A stretch of DNA of 64,000 bases from an uncultured Treponema sp. (GTDB lineage: Bacteria > Spirochaetota > Spirochaetia > Treponematales > Treponemataceae), in NCBI GenBank assembly GCA_949299755.1, contig CASGBA010000002.1:62001-126000 (forward strand), read 5' to 3'. The notes below the pieces were generated by a model. The model was not told the DNA's origin, ran no database searches, and worked only from the letters and a program-made list of their open reading frames with translations. Below are positions 20,641-30,920 of this stretch, in pieces. The translations under genes and the position numbers were made by a program. Each line of letters begins with the position of its first letter. Position 1 is the first letter of the stretch.

Positions 20641-21285
20641 TCAATCTTCCATCACGGCCTTCATCCCGTCCGCCATCGCCTTCAGGATGATGCAGCACGA
20701 GGCCGCGCCGGCGTCAAGGACCCCGCGGGACCTCTCCCCAAGACGCGCCGCCCTTCCGTATTTCGCAACCATGTCCTTCGTGGACTCCTTGCCCTCCTCG
20801 GCCTTTTCCTTCATCTCCTCAAGGGCTTCCGCAAAACCGGCACCGGCCGCAGCGGACGCCTTGAGGGACTCGCACGCCGGATAAAGGCAGTCCACAAGCG
20901 TCTTGTCCCCCGGCCGGGCGTCCACTATCCCGTAAAGCCCTTCAAGCCCGGCAGAAAGCATCCGCGAGAAAAGCTCCAGCGTTATATCCCCGGAACCCTC
21001 GCCCTTCCCCGACATCTCCATGAATACAGTCCCGTATATCGGACCCATGCTCCCGCCTATTTTGTTAAGCAGCACGCTCCCCAGATCAAACAGCCCGTCG
21101 GTGAAATCCACCTCTCCGTCCCCGAGCTGCTCCCCGTACATCGTGAACCCCTTGGCCATGTTTATCCCGTGGTCCCCGTCGCCTATAAGCCCGTCCACAT
21201 CGCTGAGGTACTGCCTGTTCTCCTGCACCCCCTTCACCATCGAAAGGAGTATCCGCCTGCCGTCACTGTTTTTCACCTTGGACAT
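20641..21285 (-). CDS. dhaL: Dihydroxyacetone kinase-type L subunit (nucleotide-binding)
   Basis: A 214-residue DhaL domain, the nucleotide-binding partner of DhaK. The GDGDHGINMAKGF motif supplies the aspartates that hold the Mg-ADP or Mg-ATP, and GGSMGPIYGTVFMEMSG is the following glycine-rich loop. It starts 12 bases after dhaK. In PTS-type systems DhaL is recharged by DhaM, but no dhaM is present here, so an ATP-using pair like the fused kinases is more likely. In this context the substrate may be erythrulose rather than dihydroxyacetone. It belongs to the high-GC segment. Confidence 0.92.
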   Translation of the reverse strand: MSKVKNSDGRRILLSMVKGVQENRQYLSDVDGLIGDGDHGINMAKGFTMYGEQLGDGEVDFTDGLFDLGSVLLNKIGGSMGPIYGTVFMEMSGKGEGSGDITLELFSRMLSAGLEGLYGIVDARPGDKTLVDCLYPACESLKASAAAGAGFAEALEEMKEKAEEGKESTKDMVAKYGRAARLGERSRGVLDAGAASCCIILKAMADGMKAVMED

Positions 21286-21297
21286 CTCCAGCCCCCT

Positions 21298-22311
21298 TCA
21301 CCACTGCCTGAGGCCCATGCTGTACGCGTCGGCGTCAACCAGCCTTTTAAGCTCACCGTCAAGCTTCATAACAGTCAACGTCGCTCCCATCATGTCAAGG
21401 GACGTGAAGTAATTGCCCACATACGGCCTGTGGATTTTTATGCCCATGCCGCTCAGAAGCTTCTCCACCTCGTTGTACAGGACGTAAAGCTCCATCACGG
21501 GCGTCGCCCCGAGTCCGGAAACAAGGACGGCCACCTCGTCCCCCTCCTTGAAAGGATAATCGGGGACGACCACATCCACCATCCTCTTCGCCATGCCCGC
21601 GGCGCTCTCCAGCGGGCACACCTCTATCCCGGGCTCTCCGTGGTGCCCGATCCCCACCTCCATCGTCCCGTCCCTTATCTCGAAGTTCGGGTGCCCGACC
21701 GCGGGCAGAGTGCAGGGCGTAAGGCCTATGCCTACGCTGCGGCAGCTGTCTATCGCCTTCTGCGCAACGGCGATGACCTCCTCAAGGCTCCCGCCCTCCG
21801 CGGCCCTCGCCCCGCCGCACTTCCACATGAATATCTCCCCGGCGACGCCCCTTCTCTTCCCCATCTGGTCGCGGGGCGCCGACGCGACATCATCATTGGC
21901 GACCACGGTCTTCACCGTTATCCCCTCGCGCGCGGCCATCTTCACGGCCATCTTCACATTCATGTTGTCCCCGGAGTAGTTCCCGTAAAGGCAGGCGACA
22001 CCCTCGCCGCCGTCCGCCGCACGGAACGCCTCCAGGAAAGCCACCGCCGTGGGCGACGAGCATATCTCGCCCACCGCCGCGGCGTCGCACATATTCCGCC
22101 CCACGTATCCGACGAACGCCGGCTTGTGCCCGGAGCCCCCGCCAGTGACCACGCCGACCTTCCCCTTTTTGGGCGCGTCCGCGGCGGCGATCACACCGCG
22201 CGGATTGTCCCCGCCGCTTTTCACCAGTTTAACAGTGTCGCCGTGGCACTTGACGAAGCCCTCCAGCATCTCGTCCACTATGTTGTCCGGATTGTTCAGT
22301 ATCCTCTGCAT
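21298..22311 (-). CDS. dhaK: Dihydroxyacetone/erythrulose kinase substrate-binding subunit
   Basis: A 337-residue DhaK domain that binds small ketoses covalently through a histidine. The sequence shows GGGSGHKPAFVGYVG at about residues 57-71 and the active-site His in EVGIGHHGEPGIEV, so it should bind substrate normally. A fused kinase would be about 570-590 residues. Here K and L are separate genes, read together with the SDR upstream. M. smegmatis D-erythrulose kinase (DerK) is a DhaK-DhaL fusion of this family, and the neighbours favour erythrulose. Dihydroxyacetone from glycerol is the main alternative. The gene lies in the GC-rich block, and its non-coding strand shows a long false frame because of base composition. 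Confidence 0.9.
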   Translation of the reverse strand: MQRILNNPDNIVDEMLEGFVKCHGDTVKLVKSGGDNPRGVIAAADAPKKGKVGVVTGGGSGHKPAFVGYVGRNMCDAAAVGEICSSPTAVAFLEAFRAADGGEGVACLYGNYSGDNMNVKMAVKMAAREGITVKTVVANDDVASAPRDQMGKRRGVAGEIFMWKCGGARAAEGGSLEEVIAVAQKAIDSCRSVGIGLTPCTLPAVGHPNFEIRDGTMEVGIGHHGEPGIEVCPLESAAGMAKRMVDVVVPDYPFKEGDEVAVLVSGLGATPVMELYVLYNEVEKLLSGMGIKIHRPYVGNYFTSLDMMGATLTVMKLDGELKRLVDADAYSMGLRQW

Positions 22312-22366
22312 TTCTTTTTCCTCCTCCGCGTCAGCCCCGCATGCGGTGCGGGATGCGCCCGTTTGA

Positions 22367-23134
22367 TCATTTGATTGTGAACCCGCCGTCCACCAGCAGG
22401 TTGTGCCCTGTTATCATCGAAGCCCCGGCACTGCACAGGAACGCCACCGCCGCCGCGATTTCGTCCGGCTCTGCGAAGCGCCCGGACGGCATCTCCTTCT
22501 TGAAGGCGTCCCCGGCAGGACCGTCCCACGCCTTGTGGCCCATGGCGGTAAGCACAACCGTGGGGGAGACGCAGTTCACCCTTATGCCGTAGGCGCCCCA
22601 TTCCTTCGCGAGGACCTTCGTCATCGCTATTATCCCGCCCTTGCTCGCGCAGTACGCAACGTGCCCGTCGAGGGCGACGACCCCGGCCTGGGACGCCATA
22701 TTCACTATGCAGCCGTTGATTTTGTTCCCTATCATGTACCTGCCGGCGGCCTGCGCCATCAGGAAATTCCCCGTGAGGTTTATGCTTATGACCCGGCTCC
22801 AGTCCTCAAGACTGATGCTTTCAGCATTACCTAACGCGGTGACACCGGCACAACTGACAAGGATGTCGATGCGCCCGAAAGCCTCCGCTCCGGCTTTGAT
22901 TATCCGCTCGGGCTGCCCGGGCTCACATATGTCGCCTGATACGCCTATACAGTTGCCGCCTAATGCCTTTGCGATTTCATCAATTTTAGGATTTCTTGCT
23001 GCAAGAACCAGATTCACACCCTTTGCCTTGAAAAATTCGGCGGTGGCATAGCCGATGCCGGAACTTCCTCCGGTAATCACGGCTGTCTTGCCCTCGAGAG
23101 AGAAATCTTTGTCCACCTTTTCGTATTTAAGCAT
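22367..23134 (-). CDS. SDR oxidoreductase, D-threitol dehydrogenase-like
   Basis: A classical short-chain dehydrogenase of 255 residues. The NAD(P) motif is TGGSSGIGYATAEFF, followed by SCAG (NNAG position), the catalytic Ser/Tyr/Lys in VNMASQAG and VAYCASKGG, and a C-terminal VDGGFTI. The VNCVSPTVVLTAMG stretch and overall layout resemble D-threitol dehydrogenase (DthD) from tetritol operons, from memory only. The base composition changes inside the gene: bases 22981-23040 have 24 G+C of 60, while 22381-22440 have 38 of 60. It stands 136 bases after the zinc dehydrogenase and just before dhaK. Confidence 0.85.
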   Translation of the reverse strand: MLKYEKVDKDFSLEGKTAVITGGSSGIGYATAEFFKAKGVNLVLAARNPKIDEIAKALGGNCIGVSGDICEPGQPERIIKAGAEAFGRIDILVSCAGVTALGNAESISLEDWSRVISINLTGNFLMAQAAGRYMIGNKINGCIVNMASQAGVVALDGHVAYCASKGGIIAMTKVLAKEWGAYGIRVNCVSPTVVLTAMGHKAWDGPAGDAFKKEMPSGRFAEPDEIAAAVAFLCSAGASMITGHNLLVDGGFTIK

Positions 23135-23270
23135 AAAGCACCTCTACAGATATAGAAGAATCAAACAAAAATCACAGAGCCCATGAATACATAAACTCTG
23201 CCTGCATATGCGAAAACACAACTATCCCTGCGCTGAAGACAACAGGTCCTGCGTTTCCATTTTACGTCCA

Positions 23271-24359
23271 TTAAGCCATATCAGGAACAAGAATGACTTT
23301 CAAAGCTCCGTTCTCTCCTGTCTTTGCTATATGGAAACCTTCCTCCCATTTTTCCAACGGGAACTTATGCGTAACAACTCCTTCCGTCGGAAGCTTGCCG
23401 TTCCCGATCCATTCAATTACGGTATCATAACAGAAAGGACTTAAGTGGGATCCAAGCAGATCCAATTCCTTCCTATCAGAAATTATACTCCAGTCAACAG
23501 TCACAGGAGCGCCGAATACCGAGAATTCAACAAACCTTCCCATTTTTCGGATACAATCCAATCCCTGCTGAACACTGGAAGGATGGCCGCTGGCTTCGAT
23601 ATAAATATCACAACCATATCCGCCTGTTAATTCTTTTATTTTTGCGACAACATTATCCTTGCCGGGATTCATAACCATATCGGCTCCGAAGTCTTTTGCT
23701 TTTTTCAGACGGGCATCATTCATATCCAACACAATGAGCAGCTTCGGATTTGCCTGCCGTAGCGCGCCTACCATTCCCAGACCGAGGGTTCCAGCACCGG
23801 ATAACACCACTACATCAGTTGTCTTCACCTGGGCACGTTCAACACAATGGAAAGAACAGCCATAGGGCTCAATCAAAGCGGCTTTTTCGATAGGCATATC
23901 GCCCGGAACAAGATACGGCAACGCTTCTTTTGTCAGTTTTACATATTCCGCCATACCACCGTTTACATTATTCTGGAAACCGAACAAATCATGTTTTTCG
24001 CACATCCAATGCCGCCCTGTTTTACAGAACATACAATCACCGCATGGTACAATTTGCTCAGGGCAGATGCGATCACCGATCTTCCAGTTTCCTTTAACAT
24101 TGGGACCTATTTCCACTACTTTTCCGACAAATTCATGTCCGGGTATCATAGGTTCTTTTATATATTTCGGCTGACCGTCAAAGCCCCAGAAACTCGCCGC
24201 TCCGGCGAAGGCTTTTGTATCTCCGGCGCAAATTCCGCAAGCTTCCACCTTCAAGATCATCTCGCCTTCACCGGCTCTGGGCGTATCAACCATTTCAAAC
24301 CGGTAATCGCCCGGCGCATACGCCACAATTGCCTTCATCTTCTGTGGTAAATCACTCAT
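23271..24359 (-). CDS. Zinc alcohol dehydrogenase, erythritol/L-threitol dehydrogenase-like
   Basis: A 362-residue medium-chain dehydrogenase that would oxidise a polyol with NAD+. The catalytic zinc ligands are in ACGICAGD and IPGHEFVG. The four structural-zinc cysteines lie in VPCGDCMFCKTGRHWMC, and the cofactor loop is GAGTLGLGMV. The phrases KHDLFGF, SFWG before the GHE motif and VDWSIISDRKELDLLGSHL agree, as far as I recall, with EltD of M. smegmatis, which makes erythrulose from erythritol or L-threitol. It lies in the ABC transporter operon, 27 bases after an ATPase gene, with a strong AGGAGGAG ribosome site. Another polyol, such as glycerol or a pentitol, remains possible. Confidence 0.85.
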   Translation of the reverse strand: MSDLPQKMKAIVAYAPGDYRFEMVDTPRAGEGEMILKVEACGICAGDTKAFAGAASFWGFDGQPKYIKEPMIPGHEFVGKVVEIGPNVKGNWKIGDRICPEQIVPCGDCMFCKTGRHWMCEKHDLFGFQNNVNGGMAEYVKLTKEALPYLVPGDMPIEKAALIEPYGCSFHCVERAQVKTTDVVVLSGAGTLGLGMVGALRQANPKLLIVLDMNDARLKKAKDFGADMVMNPGKDNVVAKIKELTGGYGCDIYIEASGHPSSVQQGLDCIRKMGRFVEFSVFGAPVTVDWSIISDRKELDLLGSHLSPFCYDTVIEWIGNGKLPTEGVVTHKFPLEKWEEGFHIAKTGENGALKVILVPDMA

Positions 24360-24385
24360 ACATACTCCTCCTGTATTTATATAAT

Positions 24386-25510
24386 TTATTTTTCACGGAT
24401 CCGGTCTCCCGTATCCTTATCGAACAAATGAGTCTTTTCGCCCCGGACTTCCAGCTTAACAATATCTCCGGAGTGATATCTTTTTTCATCTTCAGTAATA
24501 AGCATAAGCAAAGTGTTTCCTACATGAATACCTATACGGCGTTCATCCCCAAGGTTCTCAAATGTTGCTATATGCTCAGGCGAACCGTCGGATTCTGAAT
24601 CTCCAATCAGGACATCCATAGGGCGCACACCGACTTTACATACAAAGCCGTCTTTTACAACGGAATTGTAACGTTTCGGAACGGCGATCTTCAAATTACT
24701 GTTTTCAAAAGTAAAGAAAAATTTGCCGTCACCGCCGATGATTTTTGTTTCCAGAATATTCATCGGAGGCTCACCGATAAAAGAAGCCACGAATTCATTA
24801 ACCGGATCATCATATACCTCGGCGGGAGTACCAAACTGCTGGAGCACCCCGAAATTAATGATGGCTATTTTTTCAGCAAGTGACATCGCCTCTAATTGAT
24901 CATGGGTGACATAAACAGTCGTGCATTTAATGTCATTGATCAGGCGTTTAATTTCAGTACGCATCGCCTGACGGGCTTTTCCGTCCAAATGCGACAAAGG
25001 TTCATCCATCAGCAATAATTCAGGACGCCTTATAATCGCACGCGCGATATTCACCCGCTGCTTCTGACCTCCGGAAAGTTTAACCGGCATTTTATCGAGA
25101 AGATCATCGCATTGCATAAGGGGAGCGATTTCCCTGACCCGCCTGTCGATTTCCGCTTTATCAACACCTTTTGCCTTCAGGTTAAAAGCGATATTCTCAT
25201 AGACAGTAAGAGGCGGATACATTGCATAATCCTCAAAAGCCAAACCGATGTGCCTGTCCTTCGGCGGCAGATCATTGACCAGGGTATCTCCGATATAAAT
25301 TTCCCCCTGCGTTATTGTTTCCAAACCTGCGGTCATGCGCAATGTCGTTGTTTTTCCGCATCCGGACGGACCAAGCAAAGCAATAAATTCCCCAGGCTTG
25401 CACAAAAGGTTTAAATCTTTCACGGCAAAATCATTCGGATTAGCATTTTTTCTTTTTTTGCCGTCATCTTCATACCGTTTATACAGATGTTTAATTGTAA
25501 GCCCTGCCAT
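24386..25510 (-). CDS. Sugar ABC transporter ATPase (MalK/UgpC type), canonical copy
   Basis: A 374-residue ATPase of the CUT1 sugar-importer family. Walker A is GPSGCGKTTTLR, the signature is LSGGQKQRVNIARA and Walker B is LLLMDEPLSHLD. A TOBE-type regulatory domain fills about residues 240-374. The start is supported by GGGAGG. Its stop is two bases from the next upstream gene, which encodes a second, different ATPase. CUT1 importers normally use one ATPase twice, so a pair suggests a heterodimer as in the rhizobial glycerol importer GlpSTPQV. Confidence 0.93.
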   Translation of the reverse strand: MAGLTIKHLYKRYEDDGKKRKNANPNDFAVKDLNLLCKPGEFIALLGPSGCGKTTTLRMTAGLETITQGEIYIGDTLVNDLPPKDRHIGLAFEDYAMYPPLTVYENIAFNLKAKGVDKAEIDRRVREIAPLMQCDDLLDKMPVKLSGGQKQRVNIARAIIRRPELLLMDEPLSHLDGKARQAMRTEIKRLINDIKCTTVYVTHDQLEAMSLAEKIAIINFGVLQQFGTPAEVYDDPVNEFVASFIGEPPMNILETKIIGGDGKFFFTFENSNLKIAVPKRYNSVVKDGFVCKVGVRPMDVLIGDSESDGSPEHIATFENLGDERRIGIHVGNTLLMLITEDEKRYHSGDIVKLEVRGEKTHLFDKDTGDRIREK

Positions 25511-25512
25511 TT

Positions 25513-26679
25513 TTACTTGTCCTCCCGGTCCGTTTCGGCAGCGGAATATGCTTTGATTGCCGCTTCGTTATATCTACCGACATATTCTTTTGTTTCTGAA
25601 TCGAAAAATATAGCGTGATTGATTTCAATATTAATATAGACATCCTGATCGATTTTTACAGTGAGACCATTCGGCGCAATCATACGGAACTGGAATCCAC
25701 AATGCTCTGCAATAATGACAGATTTATTACCTATACTCTCATAGCTATATACAGTGCATTTGAAAAACCCGTCTTCAGGCTCAAAGGAATATTTAATATG
25801 CTGGGGACGAATTCCAATTTCAACATCATCCAAAGATTTCTCATCCAGAACACCAAACAAATCCCTGTCTTCAGGAAGCTCATATTTTTTATCTATACCA
25901 TTCAAGGTAAAAGAATAACCATTCGAGGTTTTATTCAATTTACCTTTTATGATATTAATCTCCGGATCACCCATGAGCTGCGCAACAAATTCATTACACG
26001 GCATATAATAAATATCATCACTGGTACCGACCTGAACTATTTTCCCTTCATTAACTATCGCTATCCTGTCACCTAACGACATGGCTTCCATGAAATCGTG
26101 TGTCACATAAATACTGGTCGTTCCAAAATTAGCCTGGATGTCTTTTAATTCTGTACGCATCGCGTTCCTCAGCTTTGCATCCAGGTGTGCCAAAGGCTCA
26201 TCCATCAGATACACGCGGGGAGTACGTACCAATGCGCGACCCATCGCAACACGCTGTTTCTGTCCATTCGATAACTGGCTTGGCAGCCGTCCAAGAAGGT
26301 TCTCCATCTTCATCATCGAAGCAACTTCATGCACTTTGTTTTTTATGTACTCTTCGTCACGTTTATACAGCTTGCTCCTCAGAGGCGAAGCCATATTGTC
26401 GTACACCGTCATCTGGGGATACAGGGCATAATTCTCAAACACCATGGCCGTATCCCGGTGGGCGGCGTCCACCAGATTGGTTATCTCGCCGTCAAATTTA
26501 ATCACGCCTTCTTCCGGAAGCTGTATACCGGCTATACAGTTAAGAATGGTGGTCTTTCCCGCGCCGGCCGGACCAAACAATACAAAAAACTCCTTGTCCT
26601 TTATATCGAGGGAGATATTGTCGAGTGCAGTAACCTTCCCGAACTTTTTCGTAACATTTTCAAGTTGTATTCTTGCCAT
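25513..26679 (-). CDS. Sugar ABC transporter ATPase, variant copy
   Basis: A 388-residue CUT1-type ATPase paired with its downstream neighbour. Walker A is GPAGAGKTTILN, Walker B is VYLMDEPLAHLD and the H-loop is VYVTHD-like (IYVTHDFMEAM). The signature reads LSNGQKQRVAMGRA, with Asn replacing the second position of the LSGGQ motif. It also has a C-terminal TOBE-like domain. A changed signature is common in one partner of asymmetric ABC dimers. The gene lies between the permeases and the canonical ATPase, with AGGTG before its ATG. Confidence 0.92.
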   Translation of the reverse strand: MARIQLENVTKKFGKVTALDNISLDIKDKEFFVLFGPAGAGKTTILNCIAGIQLPEEGVIKFDGEITNLVDAAHRDTAMVFENYALYPQMTVYDNMASPLRSKLYKRDEEYIKNKVHEVASMMKMENLLGRLPSQLSNGQKQRVAMGRALVRTPRVYLMDEPLAHLDAKLRNAMRTELKDIQANFGTTSIYVTHDFMEAMSLGDRIAIVNEGKIVQVGTSDDIYYMPCNEFVAQLMGDPEINIIKGKLNKTSNGYSFTLNGIDKKYELPEDRDLFGVLDEKSLDDVEIGIRPQHIKYSFEPEDGFFKCTVYSYESIGNKSVIIAEHCGFQFRMIAPNGLTVKIDQDVYINIEINHAIFFDSETKEYVGRYNEAAIKAYSAAETDREDK

Positions 26680-26689
26680 ATCTTTACAC

Positions 26690-27514
26690 CTATCCCTTCA
26701 CCGCACCAAAACTCAAACCACGGACCAGATGTTTTTGGATACAAAGCGCAAATATAATGGCGGGCAAAGCGGATACAGCGGCCGCTACCGCCAGCTGTCC
26801 GTAATGAGCACTATCTGTTCCAAGGAATTTAGTAATGGTTACTGTAATCGGTTGTATATTTGTACCGCTGAGCATCAACGGGAACGTAAAGCAGTTCCAG
26901 GAAAAAATGAAAGCCAGCAAAGCGGCGGATACAAGACCGGGTTTTATGAGAGGTACAAGATTTTTGAAGAAGATATGATACCAGCTGTACCCGTCCACCT
27001 GTGCGGCATATTCAATCTCCACAGATATATCCTCAAAGTATCCCCGTACAACCCAAATCAGCAAAGGCATACTGATCAATTGGTACACCCAAATCAAGCC
27101 GAAATAGGAATCATAAATTCCGAGAGCCTGATAAATCATAAAGAGAGGGAGAACAACAAGGATTTCGGGAGCAAACTTGAATGAAAGTATTTGAAATGCA
27201 ATATCCTCTTTTTTCTTGAAGTCATACCTCGCAAGGGCATAAGCCGCGGGGACTCCGGCAATAACAGACACAATGACAGCCCCGCCTGACACAATCAAAC
27301 TGTCCAGCATATAGCGCAGATAATCAGATTCCAATAACACAGCTTTGTAATTATCCAAAGTAGGAGTAAAAACAAAAGTCGTCGTGTACATTTCAGCATC
27401 GGATTTGATGGACAAGACAAGCATCCAAATCAATGGAAACAAAGCAAACACTGAATACACGGCCAACAGTCCGTTCTGGGCTATACGCCCCAACTTTCTT
27501 GAAGCTATATCCAT
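26690..27514 (-). CDS. Sugar ABC transporter permease (MalG-type)
   Basis: A CUT1 permease of about 274 residues with six hydrophobic helices. The EAA loop appears as EIEYAAQVDGYSWYHIFFKNLVP, where it meets the ATPase. The frame is open to 27553, but the ATG at 27512-27514 is preceded by GAGGTGG at the right distance and gives MDIASRKLGRIAQNG, so that start is used. It follows the other permease gene by 56 bases and abuts the variant ATPase gene. The substrate is inferred from the operon (tetritol or another short polyol). Confidence 0.92.
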   Translation of the reverse strand: MDIASRKLGRIAQNGLLAVYSVFALFPLIWMLVLSIKSDAEMYTTTFVFTPTLDNYKAVLLESDYLRYMLDSLIVSGGAVIVSVIAGVPAAYALARYDFKKKEDIAFQILSFKFAPEILVVLPLFMIYQALGIYDSYFGLIWVYQLISMPLLIWVVRGYFEDISVEIEYAAQVDGYSWYHIFFKNLVPLIKPGLVSAALLAFIFSWNCFTFPLMLSGTNIQPITVTITKFLGTDSAHYGQLAVAAAVSALPAIIFALCIQKHLVRGLSFGAVKG

Positions 27515-27570
27515 ATAAACACCACCTCTTGCATTAATTTTTGTCAAAAGCAATTAAGAATAAAACAGTT

Positions 27571-28506
27571 TTATTCTTCCAAACCTGCAGCCTGCTTTTG
27601 TGCAGCCCGCTGCTTTTTAACGATTTGCCGCGCCACAACATTGATGAAAACCCATAACACCAAAATATATGGAAGCGCGTATCCGAATTTTTGGAATTGG
27701 AAACCTGTCTGATACGCTGTCAAAGAAAGATTCATAAGCGTATCGCCGGGACCGCCTTTTGTAAGCGCAAAAATAATCGCATACTCCTGCAAAGCAGCCA
27801 TCAAACGGAACAAGAGGGCAATATACAAACTGGGTTTTAACATTGGAAGAGTAAGATAGCGGAAATTAAACAATATGCTTCCGCCATCAATTTTAGCTGA
27901 CTCAAACGGTGATTTTGGAAGTGACTGCAAGCCAGCCAATATAAGCAACATACAAAAGGAAGTGTTTACCCAGATATCAATCATAACCACGGTCAACATG
28001 GCGGTATAAGGGCTTGCGGCCCATGGAAAATTATAAACACCGAAAATATTCAAAAATTTTTCCAGAATACCGACCGAGTTGTTCAACATCAACTGCCATA
28101 TAATTGTCGCTGTAATCGGTGCAACCATCAGGGGGAAAATCAAAACAACCCTCATGATTTTTGAGAATTTGTTATTCAGGTTATTTAACAAAATTGCGAT
28201 TCCCAACCCTAATCCCATTTCAAACAGAGTACTGAAAAACGCGTATCTCAATGTCACCCATACTGATTTCCAGAATCCGGCAGACTGGAATATTTCTATC
28301 CAGTTTTTTAATCCCACAAATCTATAAGAAGGCAACCTGAATGAATAATTAGTCAACGAATAATAAATTGACATCACAAACGGAATCATAATTCCGATGG
28401 TGATAATCAATGCAGGAGCTACAATCATATATGGAAGCATCCTTGTTTTAAAAGGCAACACATTCAATTCGTTAATTACCGTGTCACCTGTCCTTTGTTT
28501 TTTCAT
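27571..28506 (-). CDS. Sugar ABC transporter permease (MalF-type)
   Basis: A 311-residue CUT1 permease with an N-terminal cytoplasmic stretch, six membrane helices (the first near residues 28-50) and an EAA loop around FESAKIDGGSILFNFRYLTLPML. It forms the translocation pore with the neighbouring MalG-type protein. A ribosome site GGAGAA lies before the ATG. It is separated from the binding-protein gene by a terminator-like hairpin, so it is expected to be made in smaller amount than the binding protein. Confidence 0.92.
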   Translation of the reverse strand: MKKQRTGDTVINELNVLPFKTRMLPYMIVAPALIITIGIMIPFVMSIYYSLTNYSFRLPSYRFVGLKNWIEIFQSAGFWKSVWVTLRYAFFSTLFEMGLGLGIAILLNNLNNKFSKIMRVVLIFPLMVAPITATIIWQLMLNNSVGILEKFLNIFGVYNFPWAASPYTAMLTVVMIDIWVNTSFCMLLILAGLQSLPKSPFESAKIDGGSILFNFRYLTLPMLKPSLYIALLFRLMAALQEYAIIFALTKGGPGDTLMNLSLTAYQTGFQFQKFGYALPYILVLWVFINVVARQIVKKQRAAQKQAAGLEE

Positions 28507-28532
28507 TCCGGGTTCTCCAATTTTCCTGCTAC

Positions 28533-28569
28533 AAAAAAATCAGGGAAGAGCTTATTGCCCCTCCCTGAT
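28533..28569 (-). terminator. Intercistronic hairpin with T-run between binding protein and permease genes
   Basis: On the minus strand the arms ATCAGGGA and TCCCTGAT enclose a 15-base loop and are followed by seven T. It looks like a leaky intrinsic terminator. Such elements commonly raise the ratio of binding protein to permease in ABC operons. Confidence 0.75.
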
Positions 28570-28641
28570 ACTGACTCATTACAGTTTCATGCTCAAACAG
28601 GGCGATTCATACTACCTGTAATAGAACTGAATATTTTCAAG

Positions 28642-30057
28642 TTATATTTCGATATCCGATACAATCCTATCCAATTCCACTTTGAGGGCTTTCATCGCTT
28701 CTTCTGTAGAAGCATATTTGGAGCTTGTCACAAGATCCTGCAGTGTTTCCGCCCACTTGGTTGTGCATTCAAAGAAGTACGGCTGGGGTGTAAACTGTAT
28801 GGTTGCATTCTTTGACAATATTTCAATAGACTCCAGATAATTCTCCGCTGAACCGACGATTGACTGATACGCATCGCTCTGCATTACAGAAGTCCTCGGT
28901 GTGTCAGGGCTGGCTCCATCTGTTCCGGCATAAAGCATATAATCCGGGCTCGTGAAGTACTGGATAAAGTACCATGCTGCATCTTTATTTTTGGAATATG
29001 CGTTCATCGCAAGAGACCAAATCCAGATATTGGCTTTCATATCATTATCGGTTTTTCCTTCCGGCAACGGAATTGTGGACCAAGCGATATTACCTGATTC
29101 CTGGGAAGCGCCTTCAAAATTCTGGAAATAAGCCGCACTTGTAGCGTCAAACAGCATTGCCGCACGGCCGGCTCCCAAAGCAGCGCTTGCCTCGTACCAA
29201 GTATAGTTACTCCACTGGGACGGGCCCGCAGCCTTTATAAGATTAATCCAGTAATCTGTCATGGCGATGGCTTCAGGTGAATCAAGTTTGCAGACGAGTT
29301 TTCCGTTTTCAATCGCGAAGTCCTGCGCGCCCCAGGTGGAGAACAGGGACATATATCCGGGGTGGATTGTCGCCCACTCACGTGTACCGCGCACAGCGAT
29401 ACCGAAGGAACCGGGTCCGTCAAATTCATTCAGTGATACAGCAGTTTTCATCAACTCATCTGTTGTTCTCGGTACAGACAAACCTTTTTCAGCGAACAGT
29501 TTCTTGTTGTAGGAAAGGTTGTTAAGCTCCCAACCCATGGGAAGGGCCCACTGGGAACCGCTTCCAACTTTGTTACCGGGAATAAGATCCCATTTCAAAG
29601 CATTGACAACAGCGGGTATAAAATCAGAAAAGTTATAATCGGGAGACGTTTTTGACGGATCATTGATATAACCTTCCAGCGGTTCCATGTAACCGGCCGG
29701 AGCATATTCCCACACCTGATACGCACCTGTCATATAGACGTCCGGAGTACCTGAACGGCTGTTCAAAGATGTATTCAGTCTGTCAAAATAGTTTGATTCC
29801 GGAGTAGAAGAATATTCAACGGTTATTCCTGTAAGCTCCTCAAAATCCTTCAATTTGCTGATGACAGCCTTTGAATAATTGTGCTCATTGAACATAACAT
29901 TCAAAGTTGTCCCTTCATGTTTTCTCCAATCAAAATCTTCAGCACTACCTGCCGCACTGCTTCCGGAAGTGGCCTCCTCTTTACCACCACAAGCGACAAA
30001 AAGCATTAATGCCATCACACACGCAATAAGAATACACAGGCTCCTTTCTTTACGCAT
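28642..30057 (-). CDS. Sugar ABC transporter substrate-binding lipoprotein
   Basis: A CUT1-type extracellular solute-binding protein of about 471 residues, the first gene of the transporter operon. The ATG at 30055-30057 gives MRKERSLCILIACVMALM and then FVACGG, a lipoprotein signal whose Cys would be lipidated. A GAGGAGG sits nine bases ahead. The frame is open further upstream to 30120, but those codons lack a ribosome site. The body has family traits such as the VYMTGAYQVWEYAPAG segment and a late AWYFIQYFTSPDYM. The ligand cannot be read from sequence. The operon suggests a four-carbon polyol. Confidence 0.92.
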   Translation of the reverse strand: MRKERSLCILIACVMALMLFVACGGKEEATSGSSAAGSAEDFDWRKHEGTTLNVMFNEHNYSKAVISKLKDFEELTGITVEYSSTPESNYFDRLNTSLNSRSGTPDVYMTGAYQVWEYAPAGYMEPLEGYINDPSKTSPDYNFSDFIPAVVNALKWDLIPGNKVGSGSQWALPMGWELNNLSYNKKLFAEKGLSVPRTTDELMKTAVSLNEFDGPGSFGIAVRGTREWATIHPGYMSLFSTWGAQDFAIENGKLVCKLDSPEAIAMTDYWINLIKAAGPSQWSNYTWYEASAALGAGRAAMLFDATSAAYFQNFEGASQESGNIAWSTIPLPEGKTDNDMKANIWIWSLAMNAYSKNKDAAWYFIQYFTSPDYMLYAGTDGASPDTPRTSVMQSDAYQSIVGSAENYLESIEILSKNATIQFTPQPYFFECTTKWAETLQDLVTSSKYASTEEAMKALKVELDRIVSDIEI

Positions 30058-30127
30058 TCTACTTTTACCTCCTCTGTAGAATTTTAATTTTCTCATATGC
30101 ACAAAACCGCCTGTCTGCATTCAAGCG

Positions 30128-30140
30128 GCACGTTTCGTGC
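30128..30140. promoter_or_regulatory. Operator-like palindrome at the transporter transcription start
   Basis: A perfect inverted repeat, GCACG-TTT-CGTGC, lies 11-23 bases downstream of the -10 box, so it covers or abuts the expected start of transcription. This is a usual place for a repressor. No regulator gene is present in the operon, so the protein that binds is unknown. Confidence 0.45.
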
Positions 30141-30150
30141 ATACAAAATA

Positions 30151-30182
30151 ATTCTACCCCCCCCCCCCGTCTATTCCGTCAA
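30151..30182 (-). promoter_or_regulatory. Transporter operon promoter with G12 tract in the spacer
   Basis: On the minus strand the -35 is TTGACG (30177-30182) and the -10 is TAGAAT (30151-30156), each one base off consensus. The 20-base spacer is GAATAGAC followed by twelve G (C12 at 30157-30168 on the plus strand). Removing three G would give the ideal 17. A homopolymer placed exactly here is the arrangement of phase-variable promoters such as Neisseria porA and opc. The lead to the start codon would be about 85 nt. Confidence 0.7.
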
Positions 30183-30308
30183 CTTTTTTTTCAGGATTTT
30201 GTAAAATTTTGTTGCATTCAAATATGTTTTTTATATATCCTATCTAAAAGTATTAGCTAAAACACAAAGTGAAAAAAGATTATTACAAGAAACAGGGAAT
30301 CAATCAAA

Positions 30309-30920
30309 ATGAAAGCATTTGAATACGACAGTGGAATTATGAAATACGCGACACTGCTGAGCAGAATTACGCTCTTGAATCTCGCCTGGATCGTTTTCTG
30401 TATTCCCGTTATTACCATCGGAGCCTCCACCGCGGCGCAGCACTATTCAGTCCGCCGCCTGATTTCAGGAGACATTCATGTTCTGAGGAATTTTAAAAAC
30501 GGTGTAAAACTTTTCTGGAAAAAAGGGACACTCGCATGGTTTTTTACCATAATATTGTCCGCACCCTTTGTGTTTATGTACGGCCCGCTTACAGAAAACG
30601 AGCTTCCGTACAGTCATGTTTTCCAAATTACTTCGGCCGTCACCCTTATCTCGCTGGTATTTGTATTGATATGGACATATCCGCTCATAAGCGGCTTTTC
30701 CGGTAAATTTTCAGGTATATTATTCAATGCTTTTATTTTTGCCTTTATGTACGCCCCGGTAACTTTAATCGCCGTAATTTTATACGGCGCCGCCGGTTTT
30801 CTATTCATGAGATTTCCCGCCACCCGCATCCTGATTTTTTTATTCGGGCCGACTTTAATCGTCTACTGCACTATGATATTGTTTGAAAAAATATTGCAAA
30901 AATATAAAAACAAGGGTTAA
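30309..30920 (+). CDS. DUF624 (YesL-like) membrane protein
   Basis: A 203-residue protein with about five hydrophobic helices. Its start (EYDSGIMKYATLLSRITLLNLAW) and the VRRLISGD stretch are typical of the DUF624/YesL family. These proteins are usually coded beside CUT1 sugar transporters, and their role is not established. It is divergent from the binding-protein gene, and the 251-base gap between the two start codons holds the G12 promoter. TTGCAT (30212-30217) and TATATC (30234-30239) could be its own promoter. A modest AGGGA ribosome site precedes the ATG. Confidence 0.8.
   Translation: MKAFEYDSGIMKYATLLSRITLLNLAWIVFCIPVITIGASTAAQHYSVRRLISGDIHVLRNFKNGVKLFWKKGTLAWFFTIILSAPFVFMYGPLTENELPYSHVFQITSAVTLISLVFVLIWTYPLISGFSGKFSGILFNAFIFAFMYAPVTLIAVILYGAAGFLFMRFPATRILIFLFGPTLIVYCTMILFEKILQKYKNKG

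Follow-up and report, generated by a model that had tools for sequence, protein, structure and literature searches.

When an operon for ABC-type uptake and catabolism has a run of 12 G residues in its promoter, does the run make it a slippage switch? The question is raised by one site in the window (the 64,000-nucleotide stretch of treponeme DNA analysed here), for which an earlier note had suggested phase-variable expression of a polyol operon. On the comparisons given below, we consider it likely that the tract is a slippage-prone spacer in a genuine promoter of an acquired uptake operon, with cells of one clone differing in uptake. Read on the minus strand from 30182 to 30151, the site consists of TTGACG, GAATAGAC, G12 and TAGAAT, with 20 nt between the hexamers, so that the hexamers, coordinates and spacing proposed earlier all hold; the tract is also, as had been claimed, the only long homopolymer of its kind, no second G or C run of more than seven bases occurring in the window. 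Its assembled length, taken from one genome for the species, may be off by about one base. The hexamer and tract unit lies 93 bases upstream of the likely start codon of the binding-protein gene (ATG, 30057–30055), which stands behind an AGGAGG site and is a likelier start than the ATG at 30120 given in a mechanical list of open reading frames. A standard promoter scan with spacers of 16–18 nt found no alternative promoter downstream of the tract, up to the start codon; it misses the TTGACG/TAGAAT promoter because the spacer of the latter is 20 nt.

Table 1. Features of the locus in window coordinates, followed by three more promoters with poly-G spacers from this genome in contig coordinates
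Feature	Position	Strand	Basis or remark
−35 hexamer TTGACG	30177–30182	−	TTGACA at this position in 14 aligned Lachnospiraceae orthologous loci
Non-G part of spacer, GAATAGAC, 8 nt	30169–30176	−	sequence
G12 tract within promoter spacer (C12 on plus strand)	30157–30168	−	in no Lachnospiraceae orthologue
−10 hexamer TAGAAT, flush against tract	30151–30156	−	sequence; alignment with Lachnospiraceae loci
Predicted 5′ leader hairpin of transcript	30091–30148	−	z = −5.3
Ribosome-binding site AGGAGG	30068–30073	−	sequence
Extracellular solute-binding lipoprotein, first gene of operon	28642–30057	−	PF01547, 2.8e-32; lipobox in MRKERSLCILIACVMALMLFVACGG
ABC permease, UgpA/MalF type	27571–28506	−	
ABC permease, MalG type	26690–27514	−	
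ABC ATPase, UgpC/MalK type	25513–26679	−	
Second ABC ATPase, UgpC/MalK type	24386–25510	−	
Zinc-dependent polyol/alcohol dehydrogenase	23271–24359	−	86–94% identity to Lachnospiraceae over part covered
GolD/DthD-family short-chain dehydrogenase	22367–23134	−	NF005309, above cut-off
DhaK-type (dihydroxyacetone/ketose) kinase	21298–22311	−	PF02733, 5.8e-110
Probable DhaL-type kinase subunit	20641–21285	−	sequence and position after DhaK
Divergent DUF624/MusI-family membrane protein	30309–30920	+	part of transferred block
TTGACA-N19-TAAAAT, run of at least 10	C4:11955–11985		upstream of lipoprotein gene
TTGACA-N14-TAAAAT, run of at least 10	C8:76564–76589		upstream of outer-membrane beta-barrel gene
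G9, N19 spacer	C20:2114–2144		upstream of exported-protein gene

The closest relatives of the binding protein are found in Lachnospiraceae (about 76–82% identity in the nearest loci), where the gene stands in the same arrangement of a divergent DUF624 gene, the binding protein, two permeases, two ATPases and a dehydrogenase; across the binding protein, permeases and ATPases, protein identity to the nearest loci is 76–90%. Within the treponeme's own family, 274 genomes contained no close copy of the operon and a single 46% homologue (in genome G086), which has no upstream G run. The genome itself is that of a spirochaete, given its three matches to FlaA periplasmic-flagellum sheath proteins (best, 6.6e-84), of which 14 control genomes had none. 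We infer that the block, intergenic region included, was horizontally transferred from Lachnospiraceae-like gut bacteria. Comparison of the promoter in relatives, a check proposed with the original claim, shows what that region carried: all 14 aligned Lachnospiraceae loci have, at the homologous position, a TTGACA-N17 (12 loci) or N18 (2 loci) promoter with a TATAAT-like −10. The hexamers in the window are thus those of a genuine promoter, because the 14 orthologous loci conserve them at that position, 17 or 18 nt apart. None of these promoters contains a G run, and no run of more than six G was present upstream of the gene in the loci retrieved for a wider set of orthologues. Since these Lachnospiraceae loci have a real promoter at the homologous position and no G run, it was after the transfer, and within a functional promoter, that the tract arose. 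The earlier arithmetic, by which loss of three G gives 17 nt, also stands: the eight non-G bases plus G9 restore 17 nt, against an ancestral spacing of 17 or 18.

The leader between promoter and gene has diverged as well. In the 14 Lachnospiraceae loci it forms a hairpin with differing stems and an invariant loop, GGCAGGTAAAC (for example, L049:4914–4968), which matched no Rfam family and is a candidate for a new leader RNA or operator. The window leader has a strong predicted hairpin that lacks this loop; ancestral control was therefore probably altered as the switch was gained.

A substrate that is a polyol or a related ketose is suggested by the GolD/DthD-type dehydrogenase, the zinc dehydrogenase and the DhaK kinase encoded in the operon. 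The name 'polyol operon' used at the outset is reasonable on these dehydrogenase and dihydroxyacetone-kinase genes, but the substrate is not established. The stretch encoding the short-chain dehydrogenase, DhaK and DhaL (20641–23270) has 60% G+C, as against 43% for 23271–30920 and 47% for the rest, and a terminator-like site (23201–23174) lies between the two parts; by the G+C contrast, two acquired modules may have been joined in the operon.

We then searched the whole assembly (2.35 Mb in 23 contigs) for G runs by pattern. It contains 14 runs of at least eight G (two G12, four G10, five G9 and three G8), and the length of the promoter tract is exceptional, as only six runs genome-wide reach G10 and only two reach G12. 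A −35/−10 flanked layout surrounds 4 of the 14 tracts of at least G8 and 3 of the 6 of at least G10, the three sites other than that of the window being loci L115, L116 and L110 (Table 1). On the basis of the window sequence, the chance of such flanks at any point (TTGAC before and TANNNT after, at a spacing of 10–23) is 2.3e-4, which gives binomial probabilities of about 3e-12 (4/14) and 2e-10 (3/6); even with the per-site chance raised tenfold for AT-rich intergenic DNA, P remains below 1e-6. Other long runs lie elsewhere. The second G12 is inside a trkH-like potassium-transporter gene (L112:1926–1937; G000:C2:403925–403936), the frame of which breaks at the tract, possibly reflecting translational phase variation or a sequencing error. 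A G10 inside an ABC exporter gene (L113:3551–3560; G000:C2:262550–262559) also coincides with a broken frame and has a second frame break upstream, the alternatives being a pseudogene or an assembly error. Tracts of G8–G10 adjoin repeated sequence around GGTIGG-type repeat proteins (L017, L046 and L114, on G000:C1, C15 and C9).

The layout extends well beyond this genome. The pattern TTGAC-N3–16-G7-TANNNT was found in 70 of the 145 family genomes, the richest having 20 sites, as compared with two matches for a reversed-pattern control; a poly-C version gave two matches in 110 genomes, so the tract is G on the coding strand almost exclusively. In a sample of the phylum, the pattern was present in 32 of 48 family genomes versus 28 of 248 others. 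Two genomes from outside the family (G491 and G509; family f12, genus g39) have eleven sites each; by this pattern, a second family of the class is likewise well supplied with the device. The window's family also includes a 1.1-Mb genome (G021), equal in size to that of T. pallidum, and DUF2715 proteins, both compatible with Treponemataceae. When spacings of up to 40 nt were allowed, 138 tracts with a single TTGAC had a mean spacing of 17.00 (sd 2.35), with 126 of them at 14–20 nt. Tract length and the remaining spacer are anticorrelated (r of about −0.4 to −0.5; −0.42 in the set that was permuted), none of 20,000 permutations was as tight, and the anticorrelation persists with one site per genome; judged from these sequences, the quantity kept is the total spacing rather than the tract length. 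Free hexamer positions also follow the consensus, the sixth base of the −35 being A in 113 of 144 cases. The poly-G spacer layout of the window is thus a system shared across the family, its spacings clustering around 17. Raw spacer counts dipped at 17 nt, as if assembled states avoided the optimum, but the dip disappeared when genomes were weighted equally.

What these promoters drive is mostly surface material. With lipoprotein and export calls made by a simple signal-sequence rule, a lipoprotein-like gene follows 65 of 104 sites and another exported or membrane protein 20 of 104; under a common criterion the figures are 61 of 91 and 19 of 91, versus 6 of 40 and 6 of 40 among open reading frames of the window. 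Metabolic or envelope enzymes are rare cargo (a zinc dehydrogenase, a 3-hydroxyacyl-CoA dehydrogenase, a member of the ketopantoate reductase family and two Glycos_transf_4 enzymes). A Pfam scan of 101 downstream genes returned one solute-binding protein, that of the window, which supports the expectation that a nutrient operon would be unusual under such control. As it is the only one among 101, the purpose of the putative switch cannot be read across from the other genes.

The mechanism that we propose is as follows. The operon came into the treponeme lineage with its fixed promoter, the source being Lachnospiraceae-like gut bacteria, and a G run then took the place of the promoter spacer, a layout used in the family mainly for surface lipoproteins and outer-membrane proteins. 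The tract would now act as a slippage-prone spacer inside a sigma-70-type promoter, each G gained or lost changing the distance between −35 and −10 by one base. G9 (17 nt) is the predicted ON state, G8 and G10 would be intermediate, and a weak or OFF state is predicted for G12 (20 nt) as assembled. Slippage at this tract would thereby alter transcription and leave the cells of a single clone with unequal capacity for substrate uptake, a heterogeneity that would presumably be advantageous.

The same promoter could instead be a rheostat or simply a fixed weak promoter, real but tuned slowly between lineages rather than switched frequently within a population. Orthologous tracts that differ in length speak against this. 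Among promoter pairs from other species, compared with one genome per species, three differ by 1–4 G in similar flanks: G13 versus G9 (142 identities, 5 mismatches and 6 gap columns over 150 upstream bases), G12 versus G9 (138 identities, 12 mismatches) and G10 versus G11 (126 identities, 22 mismatches). Other pairs are equal (G9/G9 and G8/G8), as slow tuning would allow, and not every tract therefore changes on every time scale. In T. pallidum, tract length at tprL shows no clean correlation with expression in vivo, and other tpr promoters are under the influence of a CRP-like regulator (PMC7864442), both of which would suit a rheostat; against it, about half of the G/C tracts of eight or more in that species (24 of 46) vary between clones (PMC10013896). 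Of 17 tracts tested in T. pallidum, the majority were variable (PMC7864442). We regard slow tuning or fixed weakness as rather unlikely.

The tract might also have arisen by a mutational accident, destroying the promoter as the acquired operon decayed, with no adaptive switching. The unfavourable 20-nt spacer and the loss of the donor lineage's conserved leader loop are what one would expect of decay, but the open reading frames of the operon are all intact and strongly conserved, both hexamers survive and the layout recurs family-wide with total spacing near 17; such an accident is quite improbable. A G run working by way of a G-quadruplex or a poly-G-binding protein, and not through spacing, would account for the strand bias of the tracts. 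A single G12 run is, however, too short for a three-tetrad intramolecular quadruplex, and a mechanism based on structure alone does not predict spacing centred on 17 with compensating spacer parts, which makes action of this kind very improbable. Long G runs are error-prone, and the frame-breaking trkH and exporter tracts of this very assembly would be in keeping with a homopolymer that is an assembly or sequencing artefact. Such an error may shift a length by about one base; it would not create G12 at this exact site, nor the same layout in dozens of independent genomes, and we find an artefact hardly credible. A spacer prone to slippage in a genuine promoter therefore remains our preferred reading.

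Immune evasion is the usual explanation for the promoter-slippage switches known so far; here it is an operon for uptake and catabolism that lies behind the promoter. Because the donor lineage shows the fixed promoter in its ancestral form, one can reconstruct, base by base, how a contingency locus was born; with the family survey, poly-G promoters can be counted in many species and an ON length predicted for each tract. Whether treponemes of this family generally convert fixed promoters of acquired metabolic operons into slippage switches through poly-G, dividing nutrient use randomly and heritably within a clone, seems to us an evenly balanced proposition; it would make the device a general one of the family and not a speciality of T. 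pallidum antigen variation.

The Lachnospiraceae orthologues of the operon share its gene content, gene order and promoter position, but have a fixed 17- or 18-nt spacer free of G runs and a leader hairpin with GGCAGGTAAAC. The other poly-G promoters of the family share the TTGAC-N-G7+-TANNNT layout and a total spacing of about 17, and differ in driving mostly genes for lipoproteins or exported proteins. In T. pallidum, variable-length poly-G tracts change the activity of the tprE/G/J and tprL promoters (PMC7864442). These promoters resemble that of the window in having poly-G tracts, but their products are surface antigens, and at tprL the tract lies over the −10 region, adjacent to the start site, which leaves the hexamer spacing constant. 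Tracts of the tpr type overlap the −10 or come after it, close to the start site; that of the window is confined to the spacer and stops where the −10 starts. In its flanking −35 and −10 hexamers, a tract of at least eight identical bases and an attainable spacing of about 17 nt, it matches the porA and TP0126 type. In Neisseria meningitidis porA, according to PMC7864442, a poly-G tract separates −35 from −10 and governs transcription by setting their spacing; the product is a porin of an unrelated bacterium, with no evidence there of a converted fixed promoter of acquired origin. A precedent also exists in the treponemes themselves, for which the earlier note had cited tpr genes: in the same source, the T. 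pallidum gene TP0126 (an OmpW homologue) has been found experimentally to have poly-G between −35 and −10, with expression best at 17 nt. TP0126 probably belongs to the same bacterial family as the window and has the same layout, with the optimum that is predicted for the window, but it encodes a single outer-membrane protein of a pathogen. The proposed mechanism is one already demonstrated for TP0126, and what sets the window apart is its unusual cargo, a horizontally acquired operon for uptake and catabolism.
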